Shown: piece by piece, positions 483-18,676 of the stretch
Layout of the letters: the number at the start of each line of letters is the position of its first letter
How positions within the stretch are numbered: position 1 is the first letter of the stretch
Assembly (NCBI RefSeq): GCF_000024185.1
Contig: NC_013790.1
Coordinates: 767,501 to 831,500 of the forward strand
Direction of reading: 5' to 3'
DNA from: Methanobrevibacter ruminantium M1
GTDB taxonomy: Archaea; Methanobacteriota; Methanobacteria; Methanobacteriales; Methanobacteriaceae
DNA length: 64,000 bases
The notes under the pieces: model-generated
Databases searched by the model: none
Told to the model about the DNA's origin: nothing
The model's input: only the letters and a program-made list of their open reading frames with translations
Translations under genes and position numbers: made by a program

Positions 483-730
483 AATGACCTTTTATTTCTC
501 CTTATTTGTGCCATCCTTTCGAAATCACCATATTTCAAACCTAATGCCATTATAGCACCAGTGCAAGCTCCACAAACTTCTCCTTTACGCATACCGCCTC
601 CAAATGATATGCTGATTTTAAATGCCTGTTCTCTTGAAAGTCCAAACTCTTCACAAAATACCTCTAAGACAGCTTGTGAACACATATAACCATCTTCAAA
701 TAATTGTACTGCTTCTTCTACATAATTCAT
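479..730 (-). CDS. Truncated C_GCAxxG_C_C family (redox-type) protein
   Basis: An 83-residue protein. The N-terminal half fits the C_GCAxxG_C_C family: a GYMCSQAVLEVF segment, then FGGGMRKGEVCGACTGAIMALG with the VCGACTGA signature near residues 52-59. From general knowledge of the family, members are longer and carry further cysteines after this point. Here the protein stops shortly afterwards in RRNKRSL, so the C-terminal cysteines are absent. Its stop overlaps the start of the DUF3795 gene (ATGA). Either it is a short variant or a deletion or frameshift removed the tail and joined it to its neighbour. Function is unknown. Confidence 0.65.
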   Translation of the reverse strand: MNYVEEAVQLFEDGYMCSQAVLEVFCEEFGLSREQAFKISISFGGGMRKGEVCGACTGAIMALGLKYGDFERMAQIRRNKRSL

Positions 731-780
731 GATATTAAATATCTTTTTGTTAAGTATATAATTTTAATGGACAACACAGT

Positions 781-1060
781 TTAATATATTCCAGACCATA
801 GCAACCTTGCCATACCCATGTTATAAGCGAGCCAATTCGCCCGGCCGACCCCCACGCCGGTGCGTAAGTGGAGGCGTGTGTGGGGAGGCCTGGGTGAATA
901 GAATTGGCGAGCACTACTATAGGGAGGAACCAATCCTCTCCAGTCGGTTCTGTAAATCAAGCATTTGAATAAAAAGTTAAATATCAAACAATCATCATGT
1001 TCCGCCCAACCATAGGTTGGACTGAACGCCTTGAGCATAAGCGAAAGGCCATAATATTGG
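781..1060. ncRNA. Putative structured RNA in a GC-rich island, family unknown
   Basis: This block is strikingly GC-rich in an AT-rich spacer and contains several hairpins. The largest spans 831-908: GCCAATTC (831-838) pairs perfectly with GAATTGGC (901-908), continuing through GGCC (843-846 with 887-890) and ACGCC (854-858 with 873-877). Others are 927-950 (GAACC/GGTTC), 999-1027 (GTTC..CCAACC with GGTTGG..GAAC) and 1028-1049 (GCCTT/AAGGC). The hairpins read on either strand, so the transcribed strand is undecided. I looked for the RNase P motif GAGGAAAGTCC and for the SRP domain IV motif and found neither. An 85-codon minus-strand frame (781-1038) crosses the block but does not resemble a protein. 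Confidence 0.5.
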
Positions 1061-3750: not shown

Positions 3751-5010
3751 TTTAGGGGCCTGACGATTTTAGTTTTCAGATAATTGTTGTATGGCCGTTT
3801 TTGAGTAAAATCCTTGTGATATAATCAGTGCTCCTAAAAATACATTTAGATAAACGGTTTTTTCTACTGATTTTGGAGTATATTTGTGGATTTCTCTCAT
3901 ATTCAAGCCTTGTTTTAATAATTTGAAAAAATCTTCTATTTTGCCCCTTATTGGTTTAAATTTTTCCCATGAATCTATTTTTTTCATTAATTCCATTTTT
4001 AAACTGTTGTATAATCTTTTTTCTTTCATTATTCTCTTTGTTTTGTTAAATACGGCTAGTGGATAAGTTAAAATGTCATCCAATCGGGTTCTGCTGAATT
4101 TTTCTTTTGGAAAAATGAAAGGAATGATTTTGTATTTGCTGATTCCGATTTGGTAGTTTTTATAGCTGTAATATCCTTTATCAAAGATTAATGTGTCTCC
4201 TTTTCTGATTATTCGTCTTTTTTGAAGGTTTTCTAAAATTTCTTCGAAAAGTTTTGCATCGTTTGGAGCTCCAGAGTGGACTAAAATACAAACAGGATTC
4301 ATAGAATCATAATCTAATACAACAGTTGCTTTAAATCCAATATAATAACCTTTAGAGGATGAATAACTCCATTTGAGATTAATTTTTTCCAGATGTTCTT
4401 TAGTCTTTTTATTTCTGTGGAAATTAATATCTACGTCCACTGGGGTCGCATCAACAATAAAAGTCTTTTTTCCTCTTCTTTTAACCATATTCCTTGAGTT
4501 TAAGATTCTGTTTAAACATTTTATAAGTTTTTCAGAGTTTATTTCTGAAAAAATTTTATAAACTTGATCTGCAGTCAAAACTTCAGAAATATTAAAGTAT
4601 TTGCGAAGTTCTTTTTTGGATTTAAGCTCGTTTAAAATGAATGGAATGTCAATTCCAAAGAACATACTTATAAATATAATTTTAAAAGTAAATATTGTTC
4701 TATTTAAGTTTTTAAATCCATAGGATGCTAATATACTTTTGGATTTTCTAGAATCCATAATTTTAAATATTTCTTTCAACAAAATATAATTTGGGTCTTT
4801 ATTATCTAAATTTAATCTATGCTTCATTATTATCGCCAATAATATATTTGTAAAGCATATTATTTAAATTTAACGATATTAAAGACCTATTTTTTTATAT
4901 AACTAATAATACAATTGTATTTTTAGAAATAAATACATTTTTATAGGGTAATGAATAAAAATATAGAAAATCTGAACGATTTCATACATAAAAAAATTCA
5001 GGCCCCTAAA
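3751..5010 (-). mobile_element. Insertion sequence, copy 1 (intact)
   Basis: An element of about 1,260 bp bounded by a 13-bp terminal inverted repeat, TTTAGGGGCCTGA at 3751-3763 and its complement at 4998-5010. It carries one transposase gene on the minus strand. Beyond the 13 bp the two ends diverge. I found no clear target-site duplication. A nearly identical inverted copy lies at 57193-58453. Size, single DDE-type gene and host suggest the ISM1-like elements of Methanobrevibacter, but that placement is from memory. Exact boundaries may shift by a few bases because TTTA/TAAA could be target sequence. Confidence 0.9.
3769..4839 (-). CDS. DDE-type transposase of IS copy 1
   Basis: A 356-residue transposase. 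The catalytic core is readable: first Asp in FIVDATPVDVD (near residue 130), second Asp in TLIFDKGYYSYKNYQ (near 215-230) and a Glu in RGKIEDFFKLLKQG (near 300). The N-terminal part holds a region of the DNA-binding type (VLTADQVYKIFSEIN). The reading frame is complete, unlike copy 2, so this copy could supply transposase for both. It starts with ATG at 4839 and sits wholly between the inverted repeats. Confidence 0.93.
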   Translation of the reverse strand: MAIIMKHRLNLDNKDPNYILLKEIFKIMDSRKSKSILASYGFKNLNRTIFTFKIIFISMFFGIDIPFILNELKSKKELRKYFNISEVLTADQVYKIFSEINSEKLIKCLNRILNSRNMVKRRGKKTFIVDATPVDVDINFHRNKKTKEHLEKINLKWSYSSSKGYYIGFKATVVLDYDSMNPVCILVHSGAPNDAKLFEEILENLQKRRIIRKGDTLIFDKGYYSYKNYQIGISKYKIIPFIFPKEKFSRTRLDDILTYPLAVFNKTKRIMKEKRLYNSLKMELMKKIDSWEKFKPIRGKIEDFFKLLKQGLNMREIHKYTPKSVEKTVYLNVFLGALIISQGFYSKTAIQQLSEN

Positions 5011-12762: not shown

Positions 12763-15700
12763 TTATTTTAATCCTATATCAAAATTTGCTTTAGTCAATT
12801 GCTCTGAATGTTTATTGATAATTTCTTTAAACTCACCTAGGTCATAATCATCATTATCTAGGGAATCCCTATAAACCATTCCAATATCCCTAATATAATC
12901 AATGCCCTTCCATCTGCAGTCAATGGAATAGTTTTTGATTCCAATTGACTTCAAGTAATCAATCTCATCAATCAGGCAAAACTCCTCTGAGTTTAGAATA
13001 ATCAGATTATCCTCATTTATGCTTGTTCTTATTGGGTAATATTGATCCTTTCTGTTTTTTAGGTAAAACTCATTTGAAGAGATGTCCATTTTATCCCTTC
13101 TCATCTTCTTATTATATTTGTCGATTAGCTTCAATTGTTTTTTGGAAATAAGTTCCTTTCTTGTGGTCATGGCTTCAATCTTTCCATGAACCAAGATTTC
13201 CATTTCAGATAATCCCTCATTGTTTTTGTTTGTATAATAGTCTTCCATTAATTTTTCAATATTCTTCTTATATAACTCGGGTGATATGCATAATGTCTTA
13301 TAATTTTTTAATTCCATAACACTATATGCATTATATACATTTAACGGATAATTTCCATAAAGTTCTAGCTTAAACTTATCTTTTAATGAATCGTCTAATC
13401 CAATTAAACTAGTCATAATATTAATGTGCAAATTCATTTTATTTAGTATGCCTAATATCTTTACTATTGATTCCTTGGATTGCTTATGTGCAATGTCTGG
13501 CAATTTCCATATGAGTTCATAGTCTTGGTCTTGGGCCAAGTTGATTGCAGACTTTAGGAAGTTAACACAGTAGCTTATGTTAAGTTCTTTTGAGTCATTT
13601 GGGTTGTAGTTTTCTATTCTATCCTTTGTAATTTCATCCAGTCTTCTATTTGGCGGTATTTCTAAATAGATTCTATTGAATAGAGTATTTGAAAGATCAT
13701 TGATTTTATTTATTTCCTTTAAGCTTTCTAGGCTATTTATGTAGATGGATAGATTTTTTGAATTCTTATTCTTATTTTCCAATTTGGCATTGGATTTTAA
13801 ATCATTGTTTTCTTGTTCTGATTTAACTTTGGCCTTTAAATCAATCTTTCTATCCAGTTCTTTAGACAACTCCTTAATGTTTTCTTCTGCAATTTTTATA
13901 TCTTCATCAGTAGGAATGTATGAATTAATTACTTCCTCTTCAAGCTTGTCAAAGAATTCTCTTCTAAGCTCATTTATTCCGCTTATTGGTGTGAATAGGC
14001 TTTTATTGTTGTTTACTGTAATCTTTTCGATATAATAAGGGAGGTCTCCTATCTTCATCAATTGCTTTTTGATGGTCTCATTTGTAATAGGCTTTTTGAT
14101 TGCCTCTTCCCATGGCATTTCCCCTCTTATTTTAAGGGTGATTACCTTTCCATTGTCCAATTTAAGGTTTCCTTTTAGGTGAGGGTAATTGTCGCTGTCT
14201 ATTCTAAAGTAGAGTTCCAGATTGGATTTCTTTATCATATGCTTGGACTTGTCGCTTTTTAGATTCTTGACTTCATTTATCAGGGAGTTTCTCTTTGTAA
14301 GGTATACCTTTGAGCCCTTCTCAAGAGGAAATGGGATTCTTTTGTTCTCCCTAACTCTTTTTATAACAAGTAGTTTGCCTTCTATGTCCTTGTCCTTTTC
14401 CCTTTTTCTCCAATGCTTGTCTTTGGAATCTTTTAGGACAGGCTTTGAGGATATGTCAAATCCATAAGTCTGAATGATTGAATGATAGTTTTCATCATTT
14501 TCCATCCTTTTTATTTTCTTTTTATTTTTATCTTTCTTATTTGATTTGGATTCATTTTGTTTATTTTTATTGTTTTTATTAGATTTATTGTTTCTTTCAT
14601 CAGAGTTTTCTCTATTGATTCTGCTTTCTATTAATATTCCATCTCCTTTTTCGGGAATGTGAATTAAATTGTCATTTAATAGGATATGAATCTCTTCTGT
14701 TTGAGGATTGTATCTGTGAATATTTCCAATATATAATCCCTGATGGCCAGGTTTCTTTCTGTTCATGATCATAGGATTGTTTTTTGGAATAAGATGACCT
14801 GCCGTAAACTCCCTATTGAAGACCAGTCCTAATTCTTCCTCTGAATTTCTGTTTTCTTCCTTTTGAATCTTCTTAAGGCTTTCTATCTTTTCCTTATCCT
14901 CTATCTTTTTTAAGTCTGATTTTCTTCCTTTCTTTCCCTTTTTGGTTTTTTTGATTGATTCATTTATGTTTCTATTCAATGACTTTGAGGTCTTGTCGTA
15001 TCTTAATCTGTTAAGTCTTTTTCTGTAGTTCTTAACTACAGTTGCCACATAGTCTGTGCTTCTCATTCGCCCTTCTATCTTTAGGCTATCAATGCCTAAA
15101 TTTACGATTTCATCAAGGTTTTCATATAATGACAGGTCCCTTGGGGATAAAAGATAGTTTCCTTCGTTCTTTGGACTGATTCTTTTGCTTTTGTTTATGG
15201 ACAGTTCATATTGCTCCCTACAGGGCTGTGCGCATCTTCCGCGGTTTCCGCTTCTTCCTCCTTGAAGAGAGGATAGGAGGCAATGGCCTGAATATGAATA
15301 GCATAGCGCTCCATGTGCAAATATCTCTATTTCAATTCCTAAGGAATGGGCATATTCCACTATTTCCTTAAGCTCTCTCATCTCAATTTCCCTTGGAAGG
15401 ACTATTCTTTTTATATTGTGATCGTAGGCCCATTTGATGCCCTCTATATTGTGGAGGTTCATTTGGGTGGAAGCATGTATATTGAGTTTTGGAATATGTT
15501 TGTTTATTATATTTATTAGTCCGATGTCTTGAACAAGTACTGCATCAACTCCCATTTTGTATAATTGGAGCAAATATTCGCTTACTTTCTTCAGTTCACC
15601 TTCCTTGATTAGGGTGTTTACTGTTACATAGGCCTTGACATTATGCAAATGGGCATATTTGATCGCTTCTCTTATTTCGGGAAGGGAGAAGTTTTCAGCA

Positions 15701-15816
15701 TACTTTCTAGCACCATAGTTCTCTCCAGAGAGGTATATTGAGTTTGCGCCAGATAAGATGGCAGTCTTTAAGTGTTCAGCACTTCCAACAGGGGCTAATA
15801 ATTCAGGCAATTTCAT
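12763..15816 (-). CDS. U32 peptidase-family protein (long form with lysine-rich insertions)
   Basis: A U32-family protein of 1,017 residues. The N-terminal TIM-barrel-like domain has the family signature AHGALCYSYSGHC, followed by GRSGNRGRCAQPCREQY, with cysteines at about 172, 179, 195 and 199. C-terminal modules follow. U32 proteins include tRNA and rRNA hydroxylation factors (TrhP, RlhA) and proteases; which applies here is unknown. Compared with the adjacent paralogue it carries lysine/asparagine-rich inserts near residues 273-328 and around 400-450, which look disordered. I chose the ATG at 15816, preceded by GAGGAATAAT, over an upstream TTG at 15828. Confidence 0.9.
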   Translation of the reverse strand: MKLPELLAPVGSAEHLKTAILSGANSIYLSGENYGARKYAENFSLPEIREAIKYAHLHNVKAYVTVNTLIKEGELKKVSEYLLQLYKMGVDAVLVQDIGLINIINKHIPKLNIHASTQMNLHNIEGIKWAYDHNIKRIVLPREIEMRELKEIVEYAHSLGIEIEIFAHGALCYSYSGHCLLSSLQGGRSGNRGRCAQPCREQYELSINKSKRISPKNEGNYLLSPRDLSLYENLDEIVNLGIDSLKIEGRMRSTDYVATVVKNYRKRLNRLRYDKTSKSLNRNINESIKKTKKGKKGRKSDLKKIEDKEKIESLKKIQKEENRNSEEELGLVFNREFTAGHLIPKNNPMIMNRKKPGHQGLYIGNIHRYNPQTEEIHILLNDNLIHIPEKGDGILIESRINRENSDERNNKSNKNNKNKQNESKSNKKDKNKKKIKRMENDENYHSIIQTYGFDISSKPVLKDSKDKHWRKREKDKDIEGKLLVIKRVRENKRIPFPLEKGSKVYLTKRNSLINEVKNLKSDKSKHMIKKSNLELYFRIDSDNYPHLKGNLKLDNGKVITLKIRGEMPWEEAIKKPITNETIKKQLMKIGDLPYYIEKITVNNNKSLFTPISGINELRREFFDKLEEEVINSYIPTDEDIKIAEENIKELSKELDRKIDLKAKVKSEQENNDLKSNAKLENKNKNSKNLSIYINSLESLKEINKINDLSNTLFNRIYLEIPPNRRLDEITKDRIENYNPNDSKELNISYCVNFLKSAINLAQDQDYELIWKLPDIAHKQSKESIVKILGILNKMNLHINIMTSLIGLDDSLKDKFKLELYGNYPLNVYNAYSVMELKNYKTLCISPELYKKNIEKLMEDYYTNKNNEGLSEMEILVHGKIEAMTTRKELISKKQLKLIDKYNKKMRRDKMDISSNEFYLKNRKDQYYPIRTSINEDNLIILNSEEFCLIDEIDYLKSIGIKNYSIDCRWKGIDYIRDIGMVYRDSLDNDDYDLGEFKEIINKHSEQLTKANFDIGLK

Positions 15817-15888
15817 ATTATTCCTCAAAATTGATAATCTTTTGTTTTATGGGGATTGTAACTAATTATTTTTGATTCTCTTGCTTTC

Positions 15889-16090: not shown

Positions 16091-18676
16091 TTAACAGTCT
16101 TTTTCATGTAACCTTCCATTTATAAAGTTTCCTTGATTTAGTCTGGATAGGGTTATGTTTCGAATTTGATCCTTTAGCAGGCTTAAGTCATAAGTATTGT
16201 CCTCTTTTAATGCCTGCAGGTATAAAGAGATTATTGTAGAGCTGTATTTGGCTGATGAGAATCTTGTATCGATTATTACAGAATCAACTCCTGTATCCTT
16301 TATAAGCTCCACTTCCTCTATCAGGCATAGGCAGTCCTTATTGATGAAATGGCTATGCTTATTATAGTCAAATACAACCTTATATTTGAATTTCTTTCTT
16401 TTCTTATCCTCAAGGATTGCATAGTCATCTGCAGAGTTTATTATGAAGTCTTTTCCATCATTTAAATTGGAAAAGTCGTCTTTGCTGCTCATGACTTCAA
16501 GGTTTCCTTGAATAATTATGTTTAGGTCGGTTTCTTTGTCTCCTTTAATGTATTGGTATTTTGATACAAGTTCCTTTATTTCCTTATGGGAGAGTTCTGA
16601 TGATAGGATAAGGCTTTTAAATCCAGATTCAGAGAGGTTTTTGACATTGTAGCTGTTCCAGATGTTTAGGTTGTGGTTTCCATAGATGTCTGTATTGAAG
16701 CTTTTTCCTATTCCGGGAGTGTCATACATTATAGGGATGCTTATTCCTTCTTCTTTTAGCTCATCAATGATTTTGCTTAGTTTTTCTATCTCTTCATCTG
16801 AAATAAAGGAAGACAAGACTAGAACTAATCTTTCATCTTCATTTGATTTTGATTTATTATTTGGATTATTGGAATTGCCAACTATTGAATAAGCTTCCTT
16901 CAATAGGTCCTTAATCTTTTCAAAATACTCTTCTGGGCTGTTGAATGAGAATGATGGGTCAAAATAATATTTATGAATAGGAAGTTTCCTTGTCATCTCC
17001 AAAAGCTCAAGGCTGTCAACAAATATTGATAGGTTCAGTTTTTCCTTTCTTAGATCAATGTCACTATATGTTTTATATTCCTTTATAAATTGATTTACCT
17101 TTTTATTTGTAGCCCTCACTTCTTTTTTGCTTGGCTTATAATAATCAAGCAGTAGATTTGTGGCTTTTTCAAGAAGCCTTCTTCTGATTTTGTTTAATTT
17201 TCCAATAGGTATGAAAGTGTTTTCAGGCATGCCATGAATGTTCATTTCCTTTATATAAAATGAGCTGTCTCCAGTCTTTAGCATTTGCTTTTCTATATCC
17301 TCTTTGCTTATTGGTCTATTCAATGCCTTTTCAAACTTGGTTTCGGAAATATAGTTAAAGTTAAAGCGCTCTATTATGTTTTTGTTGTTTATTCCCTTTT
17401 CCTCTATCTGGAATCTTCCTGTGACATTTAGGCTTAAATCCTCATTCCAGTATATGTCTAGGGACAATGGGATGTGCTGCTTTATTGTTTCATTATGGAA
17501 TTTCTTTAATTTATCGTGGGTTGACTTTGAATAGCTTAAGAGTACCTTATCTCCTTCACGGACATTTCTTGTGGTATTTAGGATTATATAATCGTCAGTC
17601 TGTTCTTTAATGTTGTCAATATAGATTCCCTTGATTTTGTCCTTATATTTGAATCCTATTCCGTCACCGATGTCAAGGTTTATTGAAAAGTCCTTGTTTT
17701 CTTTGGAAATCTTAATCTGCTCTCCTTTCTTTTCGATGATCTTTCCGATATAGACTCCCTCGTGGCCTGAGCTTTCCCTTCCTAGGACTTGGCCTGGACT
17801 TTGGTTTAGGATATATCCATCTGTAAATTCTCTATTGAAGACTAAATGAAGGTCTTTTTCATAGTCCCCCTCATCTCCATCGATTATATGTCTGTATGCA
17901 TTAACGATTGTCCCTACATAATCTGCAGACTTCATTCTTCCTTCTAATTTTAGGGAGAATACTCCGGCTTCTTCTATTTTATCCAAACCTTTATAGACTG
18001 CCAAGTCATGGGTTGAAAGAAGGAATCCGTTTCCTACATTGTAGTTTTTGTATTTTAACTTGTATTGCTTACGGCAAGGCTGTGCGCAGGCTCCCCTGTT
18101 TCCACTTCGTCCGCTGTTATAAGATGAGATGTAGCAGTTTCCGCTGAAGCAGTAGCAAAGTGCTCCATGGCCGAATACTTCAAGTTCCATATTTAAGTTT
18201 GAGGATTTTAGCTTTTCGCTGATTTCCCTTATCTTATCCACGCTTATCTCACGTGGAAAGACAATTCTTGATATTCCATTCTCAACAGCCCAAAGAATGC
18301 AGTCATAGTCGCTAAGGGTCATTTGAGTAGATGCGTGAACTTCAAGACCAGGGATTAGGGTTTTGATTAGCTCTATAATTCCCACATCCTGTACAATAAC
18401 TGCGTCTACCCCAAGCTTGTAGAGTTTGAAGAGGTATTGGACAACATCAACAACCTCAAAGTTGTTTATGAGGGTGTTTACTGTTACATGTATCTTTACT
18501 CCATTTAAGTGAGCATATTCTACACTTTTCTCAATTTCTTCAAGTGTGAAGTTTTTGGCAAAGGCCCTTGCTCCAAAGCGTTCGCCAGATATATAAACTG
18601 CATCTGCTCCTGCATTTACAGCAGTAACTAAAATGTCATAGTCTCCTGCAGGCGCTAATAATTCAGGTAATGTCAT
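16091..18676 (-). CDS. U32 peptidase-family protein
   Basis: An 861-residue paralogue of the next gene downstream. The U32 signature reads FGHGALCYCFSGNC, then GRSGNRGACAQPCRKQY, with cysteines near 174, 176, 181, 197 and 201. It is followed by the DLHLVFNREFTDGYILNQSPG block of the long U32 forms and a C-terminal U32 module. A strong SD (AGGAGATCTT) sits directly before the ATG at 18676. Tandem placement and the same order of motifs point to an old duplication. The likely cellular role is RNA-base modification of the RlhA/TrhP kind, but peptidase activity has also been reported in the family. Confidence 0.9.
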   Translation of the reverse strand: MTLPELLAPAGDYDILVTAVNAGADAVYISGERFGARAFAKNFTLEEIEKSVEYAHLNGVKIHVTVNTLINNFEVVDVVQYLFKLYKLGVDAVIVQDVGIIELIKTLIPGLEVHASTQMTLSDYDCILWAVENGISRIVFPREISVDKIREISEKLKSSNLNMELEVFGHGALCYCFSGNCYISSYNSGRSGNRGACAQPCRKQYKLKYKNYNVGNGFLLSTHDLAVYKGLDKIEEAGVFSLKLEGRMKSADYVGTIVNAYRHIIDGDEGDYEKDLHLVFNREFTDGYILNQSPGQVLGRESSGHEGVYIGKIIEKKGEQIKISKENKDFSINLDIGDGIGFKYKDKIKGIYIDNIKEQTDDYIILNTTRNVREGDKVLLSYSKSTHDKLKKFHNETIKQHIPLSLDIYWNEDLSLNVTGRFQIEEKGINNKNIIERFNFNYISETKFEKALNRPISKEDIEKQMLKTGDSSFYIKEMNIHGMPENTFIPIGKLNKIRRRLLEKATNLLLDYYKPSKKEVRATNKKVNQFIKEYKTYSDIDLRKEKLNLSIFVDSLELLEMTRKLPIHKYYFDPSFSFNSPEEYFEKIKDLLKEAYSIVGNSNNPNNKSKSNEDERLVLVLSSFISDEEIEKLSKIIDELKEEGISIPIMYDTPGIGKSFNTDIYGNHNLNIWNSYNVKNLSESGFKSLILSSELSHKEIKELVSKYQYIKGDKETDLNIIIQGNLEVMSSKDDFSNLNDGKDFIINSADDYAILEDKKRKKFKYKVVFDYNKHSHFINKDCLCLIEEVELIKDTGVDSVIIDTRFSSAKYSSTIISLYLQALKEDNTYDLSLLKDQIRNITLSRLNQGNFINGRLHEKDC

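Follow-up and report, generated by a model that had tools for sequence, protein, structure and literature searches.

What kind of sequence forms a GC-rich block full of hairpins in an AT-rich archaeal genome? The block lies at 781–1060 of the 64-kb stretch of Methanobrevibacter ruminantium M1 DNA that was analysed (the window), which is part of a genome assembled as one contig of 2,937,203 bp. An earlier note had taken it for a possible unrecognised RNA and had proposed an Rfam search, BLASTN against related genomes, and covariation analysis of the stems as checks. We describe below the structure, the relatives, the genomic setting, and the possible role of this island.

A structured island that matches no Rfam family

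A GC scan of the window bore out the contrast with the AT-rich surroundings: 811–960 is the top 150-bp GC stretch, at 0.56 against a mean of 0.32 (sd 0.08). On the + strand, 781–1070 folds with −97.4 kcal/mol (z = −4.3), and none of 200 shuffled sequences folded equally well, while the − strand gave a weaker z of −2.2. Three small hairpins were resolved where the earlier note had placed them, at 999–1027, at 1028–1049, and at approximately 926–950. The 78-nt hairpin at 831–908, which had been called perfectly closed, is indeed closed, yet it contains internal loops and a 3′ bulge.

ARAGORN found no tRNA in the whole window, and Rfam at the gathering threshold returned nothing over the same range. 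At permissive thresholds, the window and the full viral copies described below gave chance matches only, and the best match to a C/D or H/ACA guide RNA in Rfam reached 21.2 bits (E 2.2), compared with the 45 bits needed. The island therefore matches no Rfam family. RNase P and SRP RNAs, whose motifs the earlier note had sought in vain, gave no match to the island either, and the RNase P RNA is located elsewhere in the genome. As that note had judged, the long frame across the island is not protein-like: this antisense frame of 85 aa found no counterpart in Pfam. No open frame is kept throughout the relatives, and indels of any length separate them in the alignment. The island looks like a new RNA family.

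Homologs in other Methanobrevibacter genomes

A 301-nt blastn query against the 61 nearest relatives yielded no convincing homolog. A 176-nt query against the whole family (139 genomes) did recover strong copies, many with 75–94% identity and with E values as low as 1e-68. Almost all of these were in a single other genus (g5), with a few more in g3; no credible copy was detected with this query among the 18 other genomes of the host's own genus. With the covariance model of domain D1 (see below), 41 copies in the sense orientation were recovered from 28 of 151 Methanobacteriales genomes; most of them belong to one Methanobrevibacter genus. A conserved 19-mer occurred in 15 stretches of named contigs, almost all of them gut-sample Methanobrevibacter assemblies, with M. 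millerae and M. thaueri among the species. The AT-rich spacer also gave short matches in many genomes, which were set aside as chance, as were the plasmid matches.

Alignment with these relatives defined the parts of the window copy, all on the + strand. A moderately conserved 5′ leader at 787–823 (GCAACCTTGCCATACCCATGTTA) is followed by D1 at 824–913, a long hairpin with its stem at 831–908 and a GUAA loop plus a G-A step as closure at the tip; the D1 covariance model matches 824–913 with 77 bits (E 5e-19), and the domain is further defined by covariation. Domain D2 at 914–1056 comprises ACTATAG, hairpin A (926–950), an AT-rich variable spacer, and hairpins B (999–1027) and C (1028–1049). Hairpin A is partly decayed when set against the relatives, and hairpin B carries a compensatory change, with CAACC/GGTTG in the window and CGACC/GGTCG in the relatives. 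In the minimum-energy fold the island is closed by a long helix (approximately 818–824 with 1051–1057) that has no counterpart in the relatives and draws partly on inserted foreign sequence; this outer helix is accidental.

Covariation and the sense strand

Covariation is strong in D1 and also present in the 3′ helices. Among 32 distinct D1 sequences, aligned by fitting them to the model (a procedure biased towards the structure), 94.5% of the cells are paired and 14 of the 28 pairs show a double change. The double-change cells number 60, compared with 15 under shuffling, and shifting the partner by 1–3 columns reduces the pairing to 28–44%. In the 3′ part, 13 sequences aligned by plain MAFFT showed 95.8% of cells paired and 18 double-change cells versus 4.5 when shuffled, with a type count no higher than under shuffling. 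RNAalifold on a plain MAFFT alignment produced a poor consensus because D1 occurs in several lengths, and building the D1 covariance model from one length class solved this problem. Unconserved stems or a match to a protein or rRNA, which the earlier note had named as grounds for giving up the RNA, were not what we found in the tests that we ran.

The pairs also discriminate between the two strands. D1 contains 53 G-U cells but only 18 A-C cells (an A-C cell reads as G-U on the opposite strand); a G-U pair is conserved at one D1 position in 25 of the 32 sequences; and the + strand repeatedly shows GNRA-type loops together with tandem G-A steps. Because the G-U asymmetry, the GNRA loops, and the tandem G-A motifs all favour this strand, we infer from the sequence that the RNA is read from the + strand, opposite to the head genes described below.

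Intact viral copies are considerably longer than the copy in the window. They extend approximately 320–350 nt past the part present there and, as estimated by conservation with the ends not mapped, measure approximately 550–640 nt from the leader on. The 3′ extension holds the conserved hairpins E, F, and G and one more near the protease stop codon. Five loci tandemly duplicate the unit from D2 to hairpin E, which brings the length to approximately 840–880 nt (again estimated by conservation, with unmapped ends). Hairpins B and F each occur in two interchangeable versions, and the D1 tip in several. The fold z-scores of the copies are mostly between −4 and −10, and several copies fold well on the − strand too.

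Palindromic modules, tandem duplication, and module swapping, together with cargo genes collected on both sides, are features one might expect of a DNA element, in which the hairpins would work at the DNA level as part of a replication origin or of a site for packaging or recombination. We regard this explanation as quite unlikely, since neither the conserved G-U pair and the strand-asymmetric G-U counts nor the recurrent GNRA loops with tandem G-A steps would be expected of DNA hairpins. The island probably represents the 5′ portion (approximately 265 nt) of a new RNA, large, structured, and noncoding, that is carried by vir323-like Methanobrevibacter tailed viruses and proviruses; the evidence is given in the following sections.

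The window copy is truncated

Similarity between the window and the viral copies starts at approximately 786–791 and stops at approximately 1051–1066. The region of approximately 787–1056 is thus the 5′ part (leader, D1, and D2) of a larger structured RNA without an Rfam match. In place of the 3′ half, an AT-rich dispersed repeat recognised by sequence identity occupies 1057–1144 (no strand assigned) and cuts the RNA at approximately 1056. This repeat is 92% identical to one in a locus of another species (L060), parts of it recur at three more places in the host genome, and it holds the inverted repeat CTACTTTTA...TAAAAGTAG; it is perhaps a miniature transposable element. The viral genes near the island are all gone. 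Given the interruption by the repeat and the loss of both the 3′ half and the viral genes, the window copy is most likely a dead relic. The idea of an unrecognised RNA thus stands insofar as the island is structured and covarying, encodes no protein, and belongs to no Rfam family; it does not stand as an intact host RNA gene.

Could M. ruminantium have domesticated the short copy as a functional RNA in its own right? Its intact D1, the compensatory change in hairpin B, and a TATA-like box upstream (752–762, + strand) would fit such a role. The box is a tentative promoter proposed from its letters, and upstream comparison showed no conservation of it in front of the viral copies. The copy is also single, present in 1 of 19 genomes of the genus, it is interrupted by the repeat and has a partly decayed hairpin A, and other copies without viral genes resemble remnants too. 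These observations make domestication improbable, and the reading of the window copy as a relic is preferred.

The neighbourhood of the relic suggests how it arrived. The adjacent gene at 479–730 (− strand) encodes a C_GCAxxG_C_C protein (Pfam PF09719), and in another genus a gene of this family likewise adjoins the RNA in two species (L078 and L081), so the stretch probably moved together. Window positions 525–916, including part of this gene, are 93% identical to L078 (genus g5), which points to transfer between Methanobrevibacter genera, and 525–958 are 89% identical to L081.

Other features of the window were observed in passing. A DDE transposase gene (PF01609) lies at 3769–4839 on the − strand, and 3751–3852, at the end of this gene, is 91% identical over 102 nt to the edge of another locus (L071); this segment is probably an insertion-sequence end. 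Two adjacent large genes for U32-family peptidases with a DUF3656 domain are located at 12763–15828 and 16091–18676, both on the − strand.

The RNA lies beside head genes of vir323-like viruses

In the phage collection, the island matched one virus, Caudoviricetes sp. vir323 (two records), with 71% identity over 242 nt, and the copy occupies the gap after the gene annotated as prohead protease. An IMG/VR contig provided an additional link to viruses. Vir323 was probably described by Medvedeva et al. in 2023. Intact copies lie between the head-maturation (prohead) protease gene and the next late genes, and most genome copies are arranged with the RNA's 3′ end pointing at the end of the protease gene and with the portal gene on the far side of the latter. 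Many loci carry more vir323 genes, including tail, head, terminase, and pseudomurein endopeptidase genes. Judged by these gene neighbourhoods, the RNA belongs to tailed viruses and proviruses resembling vir323, found in other Methanobrevibacter. We had considered the protease, portal, and RNA block as a stand-alone cassette and dropped this idea, as wider gene maps better fit proviruses, partly incomplete.

The names portal and protease follow the annotation of the record and the gene order. A family search gave one weak PHROG hit in support of a head-maturation protease, neither protein matched the PDB, and the AlphaFold model of the portal, with a pLDDT of 32, is uninformative. In motif scans of viral contigs, hairpin C picked up the vir323-like contig together with 12 unrelated ones, mostly GC-rich, and hairpin G picked up none. 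Outside the RNA locus, neither the vir323 genome nor the other scanned virus stretches contained any of the RNA modules.

D1 is present in 33 of the 44 protease loci examined, including one (L067) in which the motif missed it and the covariance model found it; association rates among these loci are biased because they were picked via RNA or portal matches. Eight of the 11 loci without D1 retain 3′ modules; of the others, L120 appears degraded, L124 has no 3′ modules, and the sequence of L122 ends too early to judge. Since some portal loci have no D1, the full RNA is not strictly required.

The flanks of the portal-protease-RNA block in vir323-like loci contain many known or candidate defence genes, namely Gabija GajA/GajB (L068), PDC-S37 (L057), PDC-M68B (L061), a type II restriction-modification pair (L079), and GmrSD-like (L056) and MkoA-like (L089) matches. 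On both sides, these flanks resemble a cargo hotspot.

The position of the locus between the protease gene and same-strand genes, as well as the good − strand folds of several copies, might suggest control of the head operon, either by a structured intercistronic region of the late mRNA or by an antisense RNA facing the protease gene. The G-U, GNRA, and tandem G-A features point to the opposite strand, the locus by far exceeds a terminator or leader in size and elaboration, and it does not overlap coding sequence. Such control is therefore unlikely, albeit the least unlikely of the alternatives considered.

Comparison with known large viral RNAs

GC-rich structured RNAs in AT-rich archaeal genomes include the archaeal RNase P and SRP RNAs, which the island resembles in this respect and neither of which it matches. 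Another parallel, as a structured viral RNA tied to head assembly, is the phi29 pRNA, although the tie is here one of gene position. By analogy, the viral RNA might bind the portal and join in DNA packaging, and its fixed place beside the protease and portal genes would agree with this. It is, however, far larger than pRNA (three to four times), the search of all Rfam gave no pRNA match, and the RNA is absent or reduced, rather than intact, beside some otherwise very similar portals. A packaging role thus appears the least probable of the roles considered.

The large ornate RNAs GOLLD and ROOL have been described from bacteria and their phages. Like them, the RNA in vir323 and the proviruses is a large multi-hairpin molecule (approximately 550–880 nt). 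The likeness extends to encoding by viruses or proviruses, a length of hundreds of nucleotides, many hairpins, and modular conservation (PMC12286853), and GOLLD and ROOL have been demonstrated to form RNA-only nanocages (PMC12286853). By this analogy, we tentatively suggest that the viral RNA could be a scaffold in the manner of GOLLD and ROOL, a reading we favour without holding it to be probable. It would act in late infection or virion assembly, and the scaffold would possibly self-assemble via capped hairpins and self-complementary CUAUAG segments. The two groups also differ. GOLLD and ROOL often lie near tRNA islands, whereas the viral RNA lies beside head genes, and no tRNA gene was found in the virus loci scanned; they come from bacterial phages, whereas this RNA comes from archaeal hosts; and their Rfam models matched neither the window nor the full viral copies, permissive thresholds included. 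More speculatively still, the RNA may form a class of its own among large ornate RNAs, a new one belonging to archaeal head-tailed viruses, which would serve particle assembly or as a scaffold beside the head genes and would be an independently arisen counterpart of GOLLD and ROOL. A large RNA of this kind in archaeal tailed viruses, without a match to either family, would point to more than one origin of big structural RNAs in viruses. Fixed beside head genes and present in many gut methanogens, with natural truncations, duplications, and module swaps, it offers a well-sampled family for testing the role of such RNAs.
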